From Oleomonas cavernae (GTDB lineage: Bacteria > Pseudomonadota > Alphaproteobacteria > Zavarziniales > Zavarziniaceae): a stretch of DNA of 64,000 nucleotides. Position 1 is the first letter of the stretch, and every line of letters starts with the position of its first letter. The position numbers and the translations under genes are program-made. The stretch is taken from assembly GCF_003590945.1 (NCBI RefSeq), contig NZ_QYUK01000011.1, forward strand, positions 834,001-898,000, read 5' to 3'. The notes beneath the pieces are model-generated. The model was not told the DNA's origin and searched no databases. It worked only from the letters and a program-made list of their open reading frames with translations. Positions 34,360-48,440 of this stretch are shown in pieces.

Positions 34360-35871
34360 ATGACGATAGCCGAGGCCGTGGAACCGCGTACGCGTGCAAG
34401 CAGAACAGGACGGGTCGGGGTCGTTGACGTCGGGTCGAATTCGGTCCGCCTCGTGGTCTACGAGAGCGTGGGCCGGAATCCCGCTGCCATGTTCAATGAA
34501 AAGGTGCTGTGCGGCTTAGGAAGGCGTCTGGCCTCGACCGGCAAGCTCGACGCCGAAGGGGTGAAGACCTCCTTCGCCGCGATCGAGCGCTTTGTCGCCT
34601 TGTCCCGGGTGATGGGGGTATCGCGTCTGGAAATCGTGGCCACGGCGGCAGTGCGCGATGCCAGCGACGGGCCCGATTTCGTGGCCCGCGCCGGCAAGAT
34701 CGCGGGCGCGCCGATCCGCGTGCTCTCGGGCCAGGAGGAAGCCTATTTTTCGGCCGAAGGCGTGCTTTCGGCGATTCCCGACGCCAACGGCCTGGTCGGC
34801 GACCTGGGCGGCGGCAGCCTGGAAGTGGTGATGGTCGGCGAGGGCCAGGTGGGTGCCCAGGCGACCCTGCCGCTGGGCCCGCTGCGCCTGATGGAAGCGG
34901 CGCAGGGCGATCGCAACAAGGCCAGCGACATCATCGACCAGTCCCTGTCGGGCCTGCCCTGGCTGGACGACCTGCGCGGGCGCACCTTCTTTGCGGTCGG
35001 CGGCGCCTGGCGGGCCCTGGCCAAGATCCACATGGCCCAGGTCAGCTATCCCCTGCGCGTGCTGCATCACTACCGCATCCAGCGCGGTGACGTGCGCGAT
35101 CTCTCCCGCATCATCTCGAACCTGTCTCGCGAAAGCCTGGAGCGGATTTCCGGCCTCTCGCGCCGGCGCCTCGACACCCTGCCGCTGGCCGCCCTGATCC
35201 TCGACCGCGTGCTGAAGGCGACCAGGCCCAAGGATGTGGTGTTCTCCTCCTACGGTCTGCGCGAAGGGCTGCTCTACAGCCGGCTGTCGGCGCGGGAGCG
35301 GGCGCTGGACCCGCTGATTGAAACCGCCTGCGAGATGGGCGCCCGCATGGGCCGCTTTGCCGAGCACGGCGAGGAAATGGCGCAGTGGACCGCCCAGCTC
35401 TTTGCCGACGAGAATGCCGAGGAAGCGCGCCTGCGTCTGGCCACCTGCCATCTCTCCGACATCGGCTGGCGCGGCCACCCGGATTATCGCGCCCAGCAAA
35501 GCCTGTTCGAGATCCTGCGCGGGCCCTTTGTCGGCATCGACCATCCCGGCCGCGCCCATGTCGCCCTGGCCATCTATGCCCGCTATGACGGCGACCCCGA
35601 GTCAGGCGCCTCGCGCCAGGCCTCGGCCGTGCTGGACGAGCGCCAGATCCTGCGCGCCCGGGTCCTGGGGGCCGCCCTGCGCCTGGGCCATGTGCTGACC
35701 GGCGGCACGCCCGGCATCCTGCACGATTGCCCCCTGGTGCTGGGCGACGAGGCCGTCACCTTGAGCCTGCCGCCGCGCCACGCGGCCCTCGATGGTGAAG
35801 TGGTCCAGCGCCGCCTCGCCACCATCGGCCGCCTGATCGGCCGCCAGACCAAGGTCGAAATGGCGGCCTGA
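34360..35871 (+). CDS. ppx: Exopolyphosphatase
   Basis: A 503-residue Ppx/GppA-family enzyme that trims polyphosphate from its ends. The phosphate-binding loops VGVVDVGSNSVRLVVYE near the start and GDLGGGSLEVVMV near residue 150 belong to the ASKHA fold, and a C-terminal HD-like helical region follows. It directly follows ppk1, as in other alphaproteobacteria, and ends 22 bases from the convergent sulfur-cassette gene. Confidence 0.95.
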   Translation: MTIAEAVEPRTRASRTGRVGVVDVGSNSVRLVVYESVGRNPAAMFNEKVLCGLGRRLASTGKLDAEGVKTSFAAIERFVALSRVMGVSRLEIVATAAVRDASDGPDFVARAGKIAGAPIRVLSGQEEAYFSAEGVLSAIPDANGLVGDLGGGSLEVVMVGEGQVGAQATLPLGPLRLMEAAQGDRNKASDIIDQSLSGLPWLDDLRGRTFFAVGGAWRALAKIHMAQVSYPLRVLHHYRIQRGDVRDLSRIISNLSRESLERISGLSRRRLDTLPLAALILDRVLKATRPKDVVFSSYGLREGLLYSRLSARERALDPLIETACEMGARMGRFAEHGEEMAQWTAQLFADENAEEARLRLATCHLSDIGWRGHPDYRAQQSLFEILRGPFVGIDHPGRAHVALAIYARYDGDPESGASRQASAVLDERQILRARVLGAALRLGHVLTGGTPGILHDCPLVLGDEAVTLSLPPRHAALDGEVVQRRLATIGRLIGRQTKVEMAA

Positions 35872-35893
35872 GGGCCGCCATCGTCGGGGCCGT

Positions 35894-36973
35894 CTAGGCC
35901 CGTTGCGAGACGCTGTCCCGCGCCGCGCCGCCGGGCCTGACCCGCGGAAAGATCTCCCGGGCGAAGCGGGCCATCTCGGCCTCGAACGGCTGGAATTGCA
36001 GCATGAACAGTTCGATGCCGAGGGCATGGAATGCCTGGATGCGCTCGGCGACCTGGTCGTAGCTGCCCACGAGGCCGGCGCCGGTGCCGCCGTTGCTGCC
36101 CACCCGGGGTGCCTTGGCAAGGGTCTGGAGCATCACCACCTTGGCGTCCGAGTTCGCCCGCTGGACCGCCCGCACGGCCGCATCCTTGGCCGCCAGCGCC
36201 GAGAGATGTTCGTGCACCGCGTTCGCCTCGGCCTCGGTTTCCCGCGCGATCACGAAGGCGGAGAGGCCGAAGCGCAGCGGCGGCCCACGGCGCGGCCGCC
36301 GCCGCACGTCGGCGATCAGCACTGCCACATCCGCGGGCGGCTGGCCGTTGATGAACCAGACATCCCCGTGATCGGCGACCAGGTCGCGGGCCGGCGCGGA
36401 TTCCCCGCCCACATAGAGGGTCGGGCGCGCCCGGTAGCTGTTCCTGGGGAACAGGGCGCATTCCTTCAGGTCGAAGTTCTCGCTGCGGTGGGTCAGGTTC
36501 TCGCCGGCGAGGAGCCGCGACACCACGGAGATCCAGTCGCGACCGTAGGCATAGCGGTCGTCATGCTCGGCGAAGGGCAGGCCGGTCTTCTCGAATTCCA
36601 CCTTGTTCCAGGCATTGACCAGGTTGAGGGCAAAGCGGCCGCGGCTGATAGCCTCGATCTGGAGCGCCATCTTGGCGAGGATGACGGGATGGAAGAGCTG
36701 GGGCTTGATCGCCGCGATCAGCTCGATGCGCGTGGTGAGCGCGGCGAGCCCGGCGGCGGCGGTCCAGGCGTCGAGCTGGTCGAAGTCGGGCCGGTGCGGG
36801 TTGAAGGTGTGCTGCGCGATCAGCGTGGAATCATAGCCCAGCGCCTCGGCCTCCAGCACCAGGTGCTTATTGCGCTCCCACGAGGCATCGAAGGGTTCGT
36901 CAGGATCCTGCAAGGCCGCGCGCGCACCGTGAACGGCAGCCCAGATCCCGAAGCGGAGTGTCTTGGATGTCAT
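35894..36973 (-). CDS. LLM-class flavin-dependent monooxygenase (sulfonate/sulfone type)
   Basis: A 359-residue bacterial-luciferase-like enzyme with SsuD/SfnG-type features: IAAIKPQLFHPVILAKMA, ISRGRFALNLVNAWNKVEFEKTG, LYVGGESAPARDLVADHGDVWF, and QVAERIQAFHALGIELFMLQFQPF near the end. It would use FMNH2 and oxygen to cleave a carbon-sulfur bond and release sulfite. Its context with an ssuABC-like transporter and a second flavoprotein supports sulfur acquisition. No flavin reductase is present, so FMNH2 must come from elsewhere. The ATG at 36971-36973 is the family start. Confidence 0.82.
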   Translation of the reverse strand: MTSKTLRFGIWAAVHGARAALQDPDEPFDASWERNKHLVLEAEALGYDSTLIAQHTFNPHRPDFDQLDAWTAAAGLAALTTRIELIAAIKPQLFHPVILAKMALQIEAISRGRFALNLVNAWNKVEFEKTGLPFAEHDDRYAYGRDWISVVSRLLAGENLTHRSENFDLKECALFPRNSYRARPTLYVGGESAPARDLVADHGDVWFINGQPPADVAVLIADVRRRPRRGPPLRFGLSAFVIARETEAEANAVHEHLSALAAKDAAVRAVQRANSDAKVVMLQTLAKAPRVGSNGGTGAGLVGSYDQVAERIQAFHALGIELFMLQFQPFEAEMARFAREIFPRVRPGGAARDSVSQRA

Positions 36974-36996
36974 GAAGCCGATCCCCTGGGCCAAGG

Positions 36997-38217
36997 TCAG
37001 AAGAAGCCCTGCGTGGGCAATGGCGTGCCGTGCAGCTCGAAATCTCCCAAGGCACGCGCCTTGAGCGGCCCGGGATTGTGCGAGGCGAGCGTGCGGGCAT
37101 TGCGCCAGTGACGGTCGAGGTTGCGGTTCTTGCGCATGGCCGAGGCGCCGCCCACGTCGAACAGGCGGCTGGCGCTTTTGATGGTGAGATCGTCGACGAT
37201 CAGCTTGGTCTTCGCCGCGACGACCGCCGCCTGTAGGGCAAGCTCGGCATCCGGCTCGCCGTCGTCGCGGGCTTGCGCGGCCCGGTCCTGGGCCTCGGCG
37301 GCGGCAAGGACCAGTGTCTCGGCGGCGAAGGCGCTGCTCGAAATCTCGCCGATGATCTCCTGCAACAGCGGATCGTCGCAGGGGCGCAGCGTCGTCGCAT
37401 AATAGAAATGCCGGTCCTTGCGGCCCGCCAGCAGGTCGACCGCATCGGTCAGAATATTGCGCAGGATCCCGGCGACGATCGCGGTGACCAGCAATTGCGC
37501 CAGGGTGTTGTTGTAGCTGGTGCCATAGCCGATGCCGGGCGCATCGAAGATCACCTCGTCCGGCTCCACGCGCACGTTGCGCAGATGTGTCGTGCCCGAG
37601 CCGGTCAGGCGCTGCCCGGCGCCGTCCCAGTCGTCGACCAGCTCCACGCCTTCCCGGTTCACGGGCACGATCACGGACGCGAGTTCGTCGTCGGGACCGG
37701 CGGCACGGATCTGCACATGATCGGCATAAAGCGTGCCGGTGCTGTAGTATTTGGTGCCGTCCAGGCGATAGCCGTCTGCGTCGGCACGCAGCTTCGTCGT
37801 ATAAGGGCTGCCGCCCACCTTGGCACTGCCGAGCTCGGTATTGCCGAGGCCGAATAGATCTCCTCGGGCGATCAGCCGCGCCCATTTCGGCCGGTTGATC
37901 GCATCGTGCGGTCGCGCGAAACGGTCGACGAAGGTGTAGTGATTGCGCAGGGCATGGGCCACATTGGGGTCGGCCGCGGCCAGACGGATGACCACGGCGA
38001 GGAGCTCGCGCAGCGTGACGCCACCCCCGCCATCCGCCTTCGGCAGCCGCAGGGCCCCGAGCCTGGCCGTCCGGATCAGGTCCATGACCTCGTAAGGGTG
38101 GATGCGCTCCCGGTCCCGTTCGGCCGCCCCCTCGGCAATATGGGCAAGCAGCCGCTCCAGTTCCGCGGAATCGGGCGAGAGGGGGCCATCGCTTGGCGGC
38201 GCGGCAAGTTGATTCAT
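36997..38217 (-). CDS. Acyl-CoA-dehydrogenase-like flavin monooxygenase (SfnB/DszC-like)
   Basis: A 406-residue protein with the acyl-CoA dehydrogenase fold: the N-terminal helical domain, a middle beta domain with LDGTKYYSTGTLYADHVQI, and a C-terminal helical part with LFDVGGASAMRKNRNLDRHWRNARTLASHNP. That last motif is characteristic of the DszC/SfnB group, which oxidise sulfur compounds with reduced flavin rather than dehydrogenating CoA esters. It lies between the LLM monooxygenase and the SsuA-like protein in the same operon, so it likely acts on the same or a related sulfur substrate. Confidence 0.78.
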   Translation of the reverse strand: MNQLAAPPSDGPLSPDSAELERLLAHIAEGAAERDRERIHPYEVMDLIRTARLGALRLPKADGGGGVTLRELLAVVIRLAAADPNVAHALRNHYTFVDRFARPHDAINRPKWARLIARGDLFGLGNTELGSAKVGGSPYTTKLRADADGYRLDGTKYYSTGTLYADHVQIRAAGPDDELASVIVPVNREGVELVDDWDGAGQRLTGSGTTHLRNVRVEPDEVIFDAPGIGYGTSYNNTLAQLLVTAIVAGILRNILTDAVDLLAGRKDRHFYYATTLRPCDDPLLQEIIGEISSSAFAAETLVLAAAEAQDRAAQARDDGEPDAELALQAAVVAAKTKLIVDDLTIKSASRLFDVGGASAMRKNRNLDRHWRNARTLASHNPGPLKARALGDFELHGTPLPTQGFF

Positions 38218-38226
38218 GATGTCGCC

Positions 38227-39243
38227 TCAGCCCAGCCTTGCCAGGTGATCCGCGACGGTGACCTGCTCCGGCAGCACCTTGCGTGCCGTGAGCCAGTCGG
38301 CGGCCGACTGCAGATTGCTCACGAAGGCCGTGTCGTTCACCGAATGGATCAGGTACTTGCGCTTGAGGCCGGCGAGATGGTCGCGCACCTCGTCGCGGTA
38401 GCCGCCCTTGGCCTGGGCGATCAGTTCCGCCTCCCGGGTGTTCTCGCTCGCCCACTGCGCCTCGGTGGCGAGGGCGGCGTTCACCGCGCGCACGATGTCG
38501 GGATTCTCCTCGGCGAACTGGCGGCGGGTGAGCCAGGAGGTGAAGTCGATCTGGAAGTCGAGATCGCGCTCCTCCAGGAACACGTCGTGTGCCTTGTATT
38601 CGACGCGGGCGATATCCACGCCCGGGCTCCACATCGACCAGGCGTCCACCTTGCCGGCGGCGAGCGCCGGCGCCGCGTCGGGCGGGTTGAGATAGACGAA
38701 TTTCACCGTCGAGCGGTCGACGTTGAATTTCTCGAGTGCGGCCACCAGCAGGAATTCGCCGAGCCCGGAGCGGTTGACCGCCACCGACTTGCCGGCCAGG
38801 TCCTGGACCTTGTCGATGCCCGAGCCGTCCTTGGCGATGATCGCCGTGGTGCGCGGGTCGTAGATCAGGAACTGGGTGAAGACCAGCGGCGAGCCGGCGA
38901 TGATCGCGGCCAGGGCCGGGGTGGTGCTGCCGCCGAAGCTGAAATCGGCGGTGCCGCCGGTCACGGCCTGGAGGGTCGGCGCGTGGTTGGGGAACGGCCC
39001 CAGCCATTCGACCTTGATCCCCTCCTTGGCGAGGCTGCGGTCGAGTTCGCCGCGCTCCTTGGCGATCAGGCCGAAGCCGCTCAAGCCCCAAGTGAGGCGC
39101 ACCACATCCGTGTTGCGCCCGGTTGACTGCGCGGCCCGTGCGCCCTGTGACGCCGCGGTGCCCAGTGCGGCGAGCGCGCCGATGCCCAGCGATGTCTTCA
39201 GGAAGCGGCGGCGGGAATGGGGCGGCAGTGACGAGATGGTCAT
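38227..39243 (-). CDS. SsuA-like sulfonate-binding protein of an ABC transporter
   Basis: A 338-residue periplasmic solute-binding protein with a twin-arginine signal (SRRRFLKTSLGIGALAAL, then GARA). The mature part has the NMT1/SsuA-type fold (VEWLGPFPNHAPTLQAVTGGTADFSFGG, SGIDKVQDLAGKSVAVNRSG, AWSMWSPGVDIA). It would deliver an aliphatic sulfonate or related compound to the permease encoded upstream. The substrate is inferred from context only. Confidence 0.85.
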   Translation of the reverse strand: MTISSLPPHSRRRFLKTSLGIGALAALGTAASQGARAAQSTGRNTDVVRLTWGLSGFGLIAKERGELDRSLAKEGIKVEWLGPFPNHAPTLQAVTGGTADFSFGGSTTPALAAIIAGSPLVFTQFLIYDPRTTAIIAKDGSGIDKVQDLAGKSVAVNRSGLGEFLLVAALEKFNVDRSTVKFVYLNPPDAAPALAAGKVDAWSMWSPGVDIARVEYKAHDVFLEERDLDFQIDFTSWLTRRQFAEENPDIVRAVNAALATEAQWASENTREAELIAQAKGGYRDEVRDHLAGLKRKYLIHSVNDTAFVSNLQSAADWLTARKVLPEQVTVADHLARLG

Positions 39244-39270
39244 GGGACTTCCTTCGGGGGGACTTGGGGA

Positions 39271-39984
39271 TCAGTGGGCGGCGTGCGTCGGGGCGACGCC
39301 GAGTTCGGCAAGCAGTTCGGCCCGCGTCGCCGCGGGGGCGCCCGGTCGGGACGGGCGGTGTTCGGCCGCAATGGCGCCGTCGCGCATCACCAGGATACGG
39401 CCGGCCAGGGCGATGGCCTCGTCCACGTCATGGGTGACGAGCAGCACGCCCGGCCGGTGGCGTGTCACCAGCTCCTTGACCAGGCCGTGCATGCGGATGC
39501 GGGTAAGGGCGTCGAGGGCGGCGAAGGGCTCGTCGAACAGCAGCAATTCCGGCTCCTGCACGAGCGCCCGGGCCAGCGCCACACGCTGTGCCTGGCCGCC
39601 GGACAGGTTACGCGGCCAGTCGTCCAGCCGGGTGCCGAGCCCCACTTCCGCCAGCGCCGCCTCGGCCCGTTCGCGGGCGCCCCGGGGCGGCAGGCCCAGG
39701 GCCACATTGGCCCACAGCGGCTCCCACGGCAGCAGGCGATGCTCCTGGAACACCACGGCGGGCCGCTTGGGTGCCGAGATATGGCCGCCCTGGATCTCGT
39801 CGAGGCCGGCCAGGGCGCGCAGCAGGGTGGTCTTGCCGCAGCCGCTTTCGCCCAGCAGCGCCACGAATTCCCCCCGCTCGATGCGCAGGTCCAGGCCTTC
39901 GATCACCCGCCGCCCGCCGTAGGACCGCACCAGCCCGTGCACGCTCACCACGCTCTCGCGCGGGGACTGGAACGGGGCGTTCAT
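39271..39984 (-). CDS. SsuB-like ABC transporter ATP-binding protein
   Basis: A 237-residue ATPase with Walker A GESGCGKT at 45-52, a Q-loop near VVFQEHRLL, the signature [15 protein letters not shown] and Walker [13 protein letters not shown]. It belongs to the nitrate/sulfonate/taurine subgroup and energises the neighbouring permease. The ATG at 39984 overlaps the permease stop by four bases; a longer frame upstream belongs to the permease gene in another phase. Confidence 0.9.
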
Positions 39985-40844
39985 CGGGCACCCTTGGGCG
40001 CGTAGTTGGGATGCCAGGCGAGAAGCCGGCGTTCCAGAAGACGGGCGATCGAGTCGGCAAGGACCCCGATCAGGGCGTAGATGGTGATGGTAAGGATGAT
40101 GACGTCGGTGCGCAGGAACTCGCGGGCGTCCATGGCGAGGAAGCCGATGCCTGAATCGGCGCCGATCGTCTCGGCGACCACCAGGGCCAGCCAGGCGGTG
40201 GCGAGCGAATAGCGCACGCCGGTCAGGACCGAGGGCAGGGCGCCGGGCAGGATCACGCGGCGGATCGTCCGCCACGGGCCCAGCCCCTGGACCCTGGCCA
40301 GTTCCAGCAGCTTGGGGTCGATCTGCCGGATGCCCAGCGTGGTGTTGATGTAGATGGGAAAGGCGACGCCCAGCGCCACGAGGAAGACCTTCGCCCCTTC
40401 GCCCACGCCGAACCAGACGATGACCAGCGGCAGCAAGGCGAGGAAGGGAATGGCGCGCACCATCTGGACGCTGCGGTCGACCAGGGCCTCGGCCAGGCGC
40501 GAGAAGCCCACCAGCGTGCCCAAGGCAAAGCCGATGCCCCCGCCGACGGCAAAACCCGTGGCGGCGCGCAGCAGGCTGATGCCCAGGTCGTGAAGGAGGG
40601 TGCCAGCGACGGTAAGCCTGATCCCGGTCCAGGCCACCGTGCTGGGGGCCGGCATCACATGGGGCGGTATCCAGCCCGACCGGGCGAGAACCTCCCAAAC
40701 CGCGACCGCCAGGGCGGGGGCCAGCCACGACAGGACCAGAAACCGGCGTTGCCCCGCGGCGAAACCCTTGACCGCCCGGGGCCTTGGGGCAGGAGCGGCG
40801 CGGGTGCCCGTCACCGGAAAGGCCAGACGGTCGACATCGGTCAC
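39981..40844 (-). CDS. SsuC-like ABC transporter permease
   Basis: A 287-residue inner-membrane permease with about six hydrophobic segments and the EAA-like loop ELARVQGLGPWRTIRRVILPGALPSVLTG. With the ATPase and binding protein it forms a sulfonate-type importer. A GTG at 40844 is the likely start, preceded by AAGGGG at a normal distance. It is the first gene of the minus-strand cassette; a clear promoter is at 40903-40931. Confidence 0.88.
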   Translation of the reverse strand: MTDVDRLAFPVTGTRAAPAPRPRAVKGFAAGQRRFLVLSWLAPALAVAVWEVLARSGWIPPHVMPAPSTVAWTGIRLTVAGTLLHDLGISLLRAATGFAVGGGIGFALGTLVGFSRLAEALVDRSVQMVRAIPFLALLPLVIVWFGVGEGAKVFLVALGVAFPIYINTTLGIRQIDPKLLELARVQGLGPWRTIRRVILPGALPSVLTGVRYSLATAWLALVVAETIGADSGIGFLAMDAREFLRTDVIILTITIYALIGVLADSIARLLERRLLAWHPNYAPKGAR

Positions 40845-40877
40845 GAGAACACCCCTTTTACGCTGTACATTTTAATT

Positions 40878-40896
40878 ACACATTGATAATATGTGT
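40878..40896. promoter_or_regulatory. Inverted repeat near the cassette start point, putative operator
   Basis: Six-base arms ACACAT (40878-40883) and ATGTGT (40891-40896) with a seven-base spacer lie just downstream of the -10 element, about where transcription should start. A regulator bound here could repress the sulfur cassette. No regulator gene is visible in the cassette itself. Confidence 0.45.
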
Positions 40897-40902
40897 TAAA
40901 TA

Positions 40903-40931
40903 ATGATAAACAGTCGTATTTTGTCCGTCAA
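40903..40931 (-). promoter_or_regulatory. Sigma70-type promoter of the sulfur cassette
   Basis: Reading the minus strand: TTGACG at 40931-40926, 17 bases, then TATCAT at 40908-40903. This is close to the sigma70 consensus with ideal spacing and sits 59 bases before the ssuC-like GTG, inside an AT-rich stretch. Confidence 0.7.
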
Positions 40932-41026
40932 TAAATTCAGTCGAGATGTTTCGGTAAATAGGCCTTCGCCCGACGAGACCGTTACCGCGCCTGACCAAGG
41001 TCGAGCTGTCGGTCTGGTCTCCCAAC

Positions 41027-41107
41027 CGTCATTCCGGCGAAGGCCGGAATCCATCGGGACGATTGCGTGCTGGCCCAGGATGGATTCCGGCCTTCGCCGG
41101 AATGACG
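41027..41107. repeat. Inverted repeat, palindromic family B
   Basis: Perfect 29-base arms (41027-41055 and 41079-41107), containing GTCATTCCGGCGAAGGCCGG, with a 23-base spacer. Each arm also has its own internal dyad (CCGGCGAAGGCCGG). It separates the sulfur cassette from the PrsW-like gene. Confidence 0.85.
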
Positions 41108-41152
41108 ACCTGAACGATGTGGCTTAAGTACAGGGGCAGCGGGCAGCCCGCT

Positions 41153-41944
41153 TCAATCGATCTTGTAGGGCGAGGTCGAGCGCGGCGCCGGTTCCAGTTC
41201 GACCGGCGGGGTGGGGGACTGGGCCAGGGTGGCGGCCGCCTGGGCGCTGAGCAGCACCTGTTGTTCCCGGCGCAGGCGCCGTTGCAGGCGCAGGGCCCAG
41301 ACCACCTCGACGATCAGCACGATCAGGCCCAGGCCGATCCAGCCGGCCTCCTCGGTCAGGGCGGCGCCGAGCAGGCCGAAATCGTAGAGGCCATGCAGGG
41401 CCATTGGGACCAGGAAAGCGGCCCACAGCATCGCACCGGCGCGTTCAGGCTCGAAGCGGGCACGGGCGACATAGAAGCCCATGATGGCGCCCAGCACGGC
41501 ATGGCCGGGCACGGCGGTGAAGGCGCGCAGCACGGCGATGCCGATCCAGCCTTCGCCGCCGCCCACGACATAGAGCAGGTTTTCCAGGGTCGCGAAGCCC
41601 AGGGATGCGGTCACGCCATAGACCAGGCCATCCATCGGCTCGTCGAAGGCCTTGTGCCGGCGGCAATAGAGCAGCAGCACCGCCAGCTTGAAGGCTTCCT
41701 CCGGGATCGCGGCGAGCAGGAAGGCCTGGACCCCGGCGAGGGCGAGCGGCTGGCCGATGCGCGGCTCCAGCGCCGCCCCCAGGGGCAAAGCGACGACCAG
41801 CACCGGGATGACGATCAGCACGCCCAGGAAGAAGGTGCCCAGGATGGCCCGGGTCGGCTCGGGGAAGCGGTCGCTCTTGACGAAATAGCGCAGGATCAGC
41901 AGCGACGGCACCACCGCGGCGGCAATCATCAGGACCGGACCCAT
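41153..41944 (-). CDS. PrsW-family intramembrane metalloprotease
   Basis: A 263-residue polytopic protein with the CAAX-protease-like motifs of the PrsW family: AAIPEEAFKLAVLL (Glu-Glu), FDEPMDGLVYGVTASLGFATLENLLY, PGHAVLGAIMGFY and MALHGLYDFGLL, which supply the glutamates and histidines of the metal site. PrsW proteins cut membrane-bound regulators such as anti-sigma factors; no anti-sigma gene is nearby, so the substrate is unknown. The C-terminal 45 residues form a soluble tail. It is upstream of nothing on its strand except the repeat. Confidence 0.85.
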   Translation of the reverse strand: MGPVLMIAAAVVPSLLILRYFVKSDRFPEPTRAILGTFFLGVLIVIPVLVVALPLGAALEPRIGQPLALAGVQAFLLAAIPEEAFKLAVLLLYCRRHKAFDEPMDGLVYGVTASLGFATLENLLYVVGGGEGWIGIAVLRAFTAVPGHAVLGAIMGFYVARARFEPERAGAMLWAAFLVPMALHGLYDFGLLGAALTEEAGWIGLGLIVLIVEVVWALRLQRRLRREQQVLLSAQAAATLAQSPTPPVELEPAPRSTSPYKID

Positions 41945-48313: not shown

Positions 48314-48328
48314 CGATAATTTTTGTCG

Positions 48329-48440
48329 TCATCCCGGCGAAGGCCGGGATCCATTCCGGGGCAGGGCAGGCTCTTGACCAGCCCTGCCCGAGGGATCTGG
48401 CCCGTGTGGCCGATGGATTCCGGCCTTCGCCGGAATGACG
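48329..48440. repeat. Inverted repeat, palindromic family B, with inner hairpin
   Basis: Outer arms (48329-48356 and 48413-48440) match with two differences, CGTCATCCCGGCGAAGGCCGG against ...CCGGCCTTCGCCGGAATGACG. Inside it, GGGCAGGGC and GCCCTGCCC form an exact nine-base hairpin. It fills much of the 262-base gap between the transferase gene and rpiB; the rest of that gap shows nothing recognisable. Confidence 0.8.

Follow-up and report, generated by a model that had tools for sequence, protein, structure and literature searches.

The 64,000-nucleotide stretch of Oleomonas cavernae DNA analysed here (contig NZ_QYUK01000011.1, positions 834,001 to 898,000; hereafter the window) contains a cassette of five contiguous minus-strand genes at positions 35894-40844, between ppx (34360-35871, plus strand) and prsW (41153-41944, minus strand). 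From 5' to 3' the cassette encodes the permease (C), ATPase (B) and substrate-binding protein (A) of an ATP-binding cassette (ABC) importer, followed by two flavin monooxygenases (D and L). C (39981-40844) is an SsuC-like permease with a GTG start; B (39271-39984) is an SsuB-like ATPase that overlaps C by the 4 bp ATGA; and A (38227-39243) is an SsuA-family protein. D (36997-38217) is a group D flavin monooxygenase of the DszC/MsuC/SfnB fold, and L (35894-36973) is a group C luciferase-like monooxygenase (LLM) of a separate clade with an SfnG-like predicted structure. The successive intergenic gaps are -4, 27, 9 and 23 bp. L starts at the ATG at 36973, and the listed open reading frame of 1065 amino acids that ends at 35894 merely runs open through the upstream neighbours. 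No sixth gene is seen, and hence no reductase or regulator, between the end of ppx at 35871 and the start of prsW at 41153. A preliminary description of this DNA had reported a cassette with two monooxygenases, an ssuABC-like importer and neither reductase nor regulator; gene calls, family matches and the five-gene loci of other genomes described below confirm it.

A promoter scan of positions 35700-41200 returned three sites, compared with 0.4 in shuffled sequence, all of them in the AT-rich leader of the cassette (GC 0.331, against 0.675 for the whole window). Of the three, just the sigma-70-like TTGACG-17-TATCAT (40931-40903), a 10/12 match, lies on that strand on which the cassette is encoded, the minus strand. 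Repetitive extragenic palindrome-like sequences (ATTCCGGCCTTCGCCGGAATGAC and variants) were also observed at 41028-41106 and 48328-48439; allowing up to two mismatches there are seven matches at four places in the window (a palindrome hits both strands) and none in shuffles, and two of the four places are just upstream of the cassette.

The cassette is an insertion. The ppx protein was found in six of the seven family genomes surveyed, including that of the window, and the flanks were compared in four congeners (G002, G003, G004 and G005, with G006 left out). In all four, ppk-ppx and prsW-rnd-Rieske are adjacent without a cassette, the matches to ppx and prsW standing about 40-125 bp apart, which identifies positions 35872-41152 as the inserted segment. 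Congener G002 has its own cassette at another site, in the order L-C-B-A-D. In an unrooted tree of C, B, A and L the G002 copy is joined first by that of Ancylobacter (100/100) and next by that of Azospirillum (99.6/100), and does not group with the window copy; the D tree again places G002 with these two genera (92/91 and 96/95). The simplest reading is that the window genome and G002 acquired the cassette separately. Another copy lies amid insertion sequence elements on a predicted conjugative Bradyrhizobium plasmid, where D was not found. The AT-rich 20-mer CTATAAAAACATnTnTTTAG upstream of L is common to G002 (L013, 9330-9600) and Azospirillum (L023, 7750-8010). At up to two mismatches it is absent from the window's genome and from G003, and no conclusion is drawn about it as a shared regulator motif.

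Relatives of L with 61-74% identity, from a scan of named genomes, define 80 loci, or 81 with that of G002, in which neighbours were counted at fixed identity thresholds. C, B and A are each present at 35 of the 81 loci and D at 34; all four accompany L at 27, spanning Nitrobacteraceae, Azospirillaceae, Xanthobacteraceae and one congener, so the five-gene grouping is not a matter of chance. An LLM of the NtaA/DmoA type is present at 42 of the 81. In a survey of 385 genomes of the class (cut-offs of E ≤ 1e-110 for L, 1e-90 for A and 1e-85 for D), L was found in four genomes and A in the same four, with D in three of these and in two others. In G286, L and A are unlinked, at 0.78 and 4.27 Mb of a 4.79-Mb contig. 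By our own arithmetic, the chance of L and A sharing the same 4 of 385 genomes is about 1e-9, or 3e-7 when three genera of 276 are counted instead.

L matches PF00296 (Bac_luciferase) at 198.7 bits, which places it by domain among the group C LLMs. The solved structures nearest to it by sequence are 3rao, 8vw6, SfnG and MsuD. In a tree that omits two thirds of the relatives and drew a long-branch warning from the program, L groups with its relatives at 100/100, separately from SsuD/MsuD, SfnG, RutA and 3rao/8vw6. A passage of PMC8234197 names W195, R225 and R296 as the sulfonate contacts of MsuD. In an alignment of 72 rows (71 relatives plus the window, with the G002 gene counted twice and rows with a stop or fewer than 280 residues dropped), this clamp is replaced by N, S (A in three rows) and N throughout, and the flavin-phosphate residues H123, R126 and Y127 typical of group C are kept in every row. 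A further 12 rows (11 of them new, as L013 is shared with the first set) show the same loss and the same flavin residues. SfnG has N at all three clamp positions. The predicted structure of L (predicted local distance difference test score 86.2) is closest to SfnG with dimethylsulfone and flavin mononucleotide (FMN) (8t0w; Z 41.2, root-mean-square deviation 2.4, 340 residues aligned), followed by 3rao (Z 39.2), MsuD (38.2), 8vw6 (38.0), BdsA (33.9) and CmoJ (6ask, 33.0), in a VIA-align re-examination of Foldseek's 50 rows that does not exclude families beyond those rows. Structural likeness of this kind to SfnG shows no function.

These properties bear on the possibility that the cassette is an ordinary alkanesulfonate or taurine operon in which both enzymes are redundant sulfonate oxygenases. 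The SsuABC-like importer would suit such an operon, and 8vw6, titled SsuD in the PDB, likewise lacks the W/R/R clamp, so that clamp absence alone does not exclude sulfonates. However, L reaches 160.4 of the 518.2 bits required by the alkanesulfonate monooxygenase model TIGR03565, has lost all three clamp side chains and falls in another clade. The genome, moreover, already has a standard SsuD, which exceeds the cut-off (593.8 and 573 bits) and has an ABC transporter and a binding protein as neighbours. On this balance a sulfonate operon is improbable, and the replaced clamp and the fit to dimethylsulfone-bound SfnG agree with the earlier proposal of a substrate other than a simple alkanesulfonate. 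Nothing was found that points to the cyclic or aromatic sulfur compound also proposed there, and a search among open-licence papers for sulfolane gene clusters gave none on such a cluster, judged by titles and abstract starts; this candidate was dropped. Elsewhere in the genome, a second cluster (L015, G000:C11:128000-146000) comprises a TonB receptor, an LLM, a family-5 binding protein, an FAD_binding_2 protein and another LLM, together with an ABC protein that carries a membrane domain and the genome's second SfnB-like enzyme (272.3 bits); it is possibly another organosulfur route.

D matches PF08028 (Acyl-CoA_dh_2) at 51.4 bits, the acyl-CoA-dehydrogenase-type domain of group D. Its conserved H380 occupies the column of DszC His391, a residue named in a passage of PMC11134501, as befits a group D enzyme; the two residues that follow are NP, where DszC and MsuC have DP. 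The nearest solved structures are TdsC, MsuC (second best, 110.7 bits), 8cda and DszC, and the solved group D relatives also include nitrososynthase and DnmZ (3mxl, 4zxv). In a tree, SfnB, DszC and MsuC all fall outside the clade (99/96) that unites D with its relatives. In Methylocalor a relative of D (47%) adjoins a true sfnG, which scores 516.9 bits against a cut-off of 382.95; Nostoc, Rhizobium rhizogenes and Rhodococcus have others next to genes of the LLM type, and in congener G003, which is without L, one lies near an NtaA-type LLM; the pairing of group C with group D enzymes is therefore common. In Rhizobium jaguaris (L152) a D relative, an importer and an LLM adjoin a YcaO/SagB-type cluster.

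The importer misses the SsuABC cut-offs yet satisfies those of broader Pfam families. A scores 159.3 bits on SsuA_fam TIGR01728 (cut-off 163.5) and C 282.1 bits on the SsuC model NF008470 (cut-off 347), while A matches NMT1 and C matches BPD_transp_1 (119.5 bits). B matches ABC_tran, and its best NCBIfam model is the aliphatic-sulfonate ATPase NF008420, at 216.2 bits (cut-off 395). The sequence SRRRFLK of A is presumably a twin-arginine-type motif; the score on Pfam TAT_signal is 22.3 bits, just below the cut-off of 22.7, and an RRx-type motif occurs in 21 of 23 relatives of A, the sequences examined for the other two beginning past that point. A is probably exported by the twin-arginine translocation (Tat) pathway.

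A survey based on A, regardless of L, yielded 12 plasmid records (58-79% identity), of which 10 were examined (H88 and H91 left out), and eight genomes from the class and phylum surveys, giving 18 importer loci. L adjoins the importer at 11 of these. Among the 11, D is of a more distant type at six, all in Caballeronia or Paraburkholderia (about 38% identity to that of Methylobacterium), and was not found at one. At one further locus L stands elsewhere in the genome, two (Cupriavidus and G530) have an NtaA/DmoA-type LLM with D, and one (G677) has D relatives with an NtaA-type LLM nearby. At the remaining three (Variovorax, Azospirillum B510 and G609, the last from a different class of the phylum), a BisC-family S/N-oxide reductase lies directly downstream of A, in the position that D or L takes elsewhere. 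These three proteins score 919.6-938.7 bits on TIGR00509 (cut-off 1017.55), and the two with a clear start have no signal-like leader, as in Escherichia coli BisC, which a passage of PMC12096835 gives as cytoplasmic; a work listed among the references of that paper concerns a part played by BisC in assimilating methionine sulfoxide. In the importer tree the three do not form one clade, as that of B510 groups with the L/D importer of Azospirillum griseum (95.4/86) and the others branch elsewhere. If the ligand stayed the same through these exchanges, it is one open to reduction by an S/N-oxide reductase or to oxidation by D and L, as a sulfoxide would be. Some relatives of L or D have MetN- or MetQ-type genes nearby, which also agrees, weakly, with a sulfoxide. 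We tentatively suggest, and somewhat doubt, that C-B-A is a dedicated polar-sulfoxide importer with exchangeable fates for its cargo, reductive where the BisC-family enzyme is present and oxidative where D and then L would act, L being a new family of sulfone C-S monooxygenases. Behind the importer of Paraburkholderia largidicola (L156, 8892-10130) the D-type gene is annotated as two short hypothetical proteins and therefore looks broken, with L annotated whole.

The surroundings of the relatives also tie the system to sulfur. A PF01613 flavin reductase lies next to D at 24 of the 81 L loci, all named Bradyrhizobium, and a CysE-like gene is present at 25; 23 of the 24 read CysE-reductase-D and one has no CysE-like gene. 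The CysE-like genes link the system to cysteine synthesis. In Methylobacterium radiotolerans (L114, 5596-6840), soxC, for sulfite dehydrogenase, stands beside a D relative and near SsuA-like, L and NtaA-type genes, which suggests sulfite as the end product there. The Bradyrhizobium and Methylobacterium genes lend backing to the idea, put forward in the preliminary description, of a sulfur cassette in which a single importer accompanies two dissimilar flavin monooxygenases. The window's genome has three PF01613 and four PF03358 matches as candidate flavin reductases, all outside the cassette. PMC13352529 describes a single reductase, MsuE, as serving the whole dimethylsulfide (DMS) route in Acinetobacter. 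Since Bradyrhizobium relatives encode a reductase and MsuE is shared in Acinetobacter, its absence from the cassette is uninformative, and we rejected it as a sign of an unusual mechanism.

We read the cassette, with confidence evenly divided, as an acquired organosulfur-assimilation operon that imports a polar S-oxygenated compound other than a sulfonate, most likely a sulfoxide (or a sulfone), to be processed by D and then L. The analysis shows the gene content, the insertion, the co-conservation, the lost sulfonate clamp, the retained flavin and catalytic residues and the importer's other partners; the substrate, the step order and the products are what we infer. A, probably Tat-exported, and the ABC importer would bring in the sulfoxide or sulfone. 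D would oxygenate the sulfur of a sulfoxide to give a sulfone, using FMNH2 from a reductase encoded elsewhere, perhaps one of the seven candidates. L, also FMNH2-dependent, would then cleave the sulfone C-S bond as SfnG does, releasing an aldehyde and a sulfinate. The sulfur of the sulfinate could pass by way of sulfite into cysteine synthesis, a conversion that would either be spontaneous or involve further oxygenases, for instance the SsuD encoded in this genome. In Acinetobacter, according to PMC13352529, DMS and dimethylsulfoxide are oxidised by group D enzymes, and oxidation of DMS was seen with none of the group C enzymes tested.

Several observations weigh against this interpretation. 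L occurs without the other tracked genes at 25 of the 81 loci at the thresholds set, some of them cut by contig ends, and at some loci its relatives adjoin genes for a coenzyme A (CoA)-transferase, an enoyl-CoA hydratase or TctC, so that L may serve other uses. Conversely, G003 and G033 have D without L. The best NCBIfam model for L is SfnG TIGR04021, at 207.6 bits (cut-off 382.95; an annotated SfnG scores 635.5), and that for D is SfnB TIGR04022, at 266.8 bits (cut-off 430.9; Agrobacterium SfnB scores 604.3), so both fall short of the families they most resemble. The BisC-family enzyme is present at only three of the 18 importer loci, two of which (L157 and L167) keep an LLM-type gene nearby, 41% identical to the NtaA type in B510 and 30% to SfnG in G609, and exchanged importer neighbours need not imply one ligand. 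The strongest of these counterpoints are the many loci at which L lacks the rest, the uncertain meaning of the clamp loss discussed above for 8vw6, and the small number of BisC cases.

BisC-family enzymes also reduce N-oxides, which raises the possibility of a non-sulfur ligand, such as an N-oxide or amine, with D and L acting on nitrogen or carbon. Nitrososynthase and DnmZ among the group D relatives would agree with this, as would the CoA-transferase and enoyl-CoA hydratase genes beside L relatives in some Acetobacteraceae. The CysE-like genes and the soxC beside the Methylobacterium copy argue the other way, as does the activity on sulfur compounds of most of the closest relatives with solved structures; a non-sulfur ligand is very improbable.

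A stronger competitor to the D-then-L order, if still an unlikely one, is the reverse, in which a sulfone is imported, L acts first in the manner of SfnG to give a sulfinate, D then forms a sulfonate as MsuC would, and the chromosomal SsuD takes the last step. Such an order is that of the established SfnG-MsuC-MsuD route, which a passage of PMC8234197 sets out, and both the rank of MsuC among the solved relatives of D and the presence of SsuD with its transporter would accommodate it. Against it, MsuC and D belong to different clades, the msuC deletion in Acinetobacter had no significant effect and MsuC has a low kcat (passage of PMC13352529), and the exchange with BisC suits a sulfoxide better than a sulfone.

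Taken as a whole, the preliminary interpretation was partly supported, or half right. A large share of the sulfur in soil is organic, and many oxygenases of the SfnB-like and LLM types still lack an assigned substrate. The cassette is a conserved, horizontally moving module, shared by Bradyrhizobium, Azospirillum, Paraburkholderia and others, and the class of its ligand can be tested. Such a module would give a function to a family now recorded only as 'LLM class flavin-dependent oxidoreductase', and would reveal a route by which cells take up sulfoxides or sulfones.

Among characterised systems, the SfnG/SfnB/MsuC dimethylsulfone route (sfn and msu genes of Pseudomonas, Agrobacterium and Gordonia) shares with the cassette one group C and one group D FMN-dependent monooxygenase and the combination of S-oxygenation with C-S cleavage, and SfnG is the best structural match of L. 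The Agrobacterium sfn locus (msuE-sfnG-importer-SfnB) also includes an importer, which there lies between the group C and group D genes. Unlike that route, the cassette has no msuE- or SfnR-like gene and its L and D lie outside the SfnG and SfnB families, and the Agrobacterium importer is of the branched-chain type whereas that of the cassette is SsuABC-like. The SsuEADCB alkanesulfonate operon also joins an SsuABC-like importer to an LLM monooxygenase; it differs in that the cassette has a second, group D oxygenase, no sulfonate clamp in L and no ssuE, the true ssuD lying elsewhere in the genome. A passage of PMC10708946 names SsuABC, SsuD and TauD for a Bradyrhizobium. The dszABC genes (4S pathway) of Rhodococcus similarly pair a DszC-type group D enzyme with a group C enzyme that cleaves C-S bonds, but L is not of the NtaA/DmoA/DszA type (84.9 bits on TIGR03860, cut-off 279.7), D scores 106.1 bits on the DszC model NF043015 (cut-off 850), and the cassette has no desulfinase gene.

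The CmoO/CmoJ S-alkylcysteine salvage of Bacillus likewise employs two flavoenzymes, for S-oxidation and then oxidative C-S cleavage. PMC10863075 describes both these reactions and the homology of CmoJ to DszA and YxeK; CmoJ matches the predicted L structure less closely than SfnG does. Among open-licence papers, judged by titles and abstract starts, none was recognised on this gene set. The pairing of group C and group D enzymes is not new, as the Agrobacterium locus, the Methylocalor D relative beside sfnG and Gordonia illustrate, a passage of PMC11852219 giving consecutive protein numbers for an LLM, SfnG and SfnB in the last. The cassette belongs to the known sfn/msu/ssu/dsz type, as a so far uncharacterised variant, and brings a fresh and testable hint as to its ligand.

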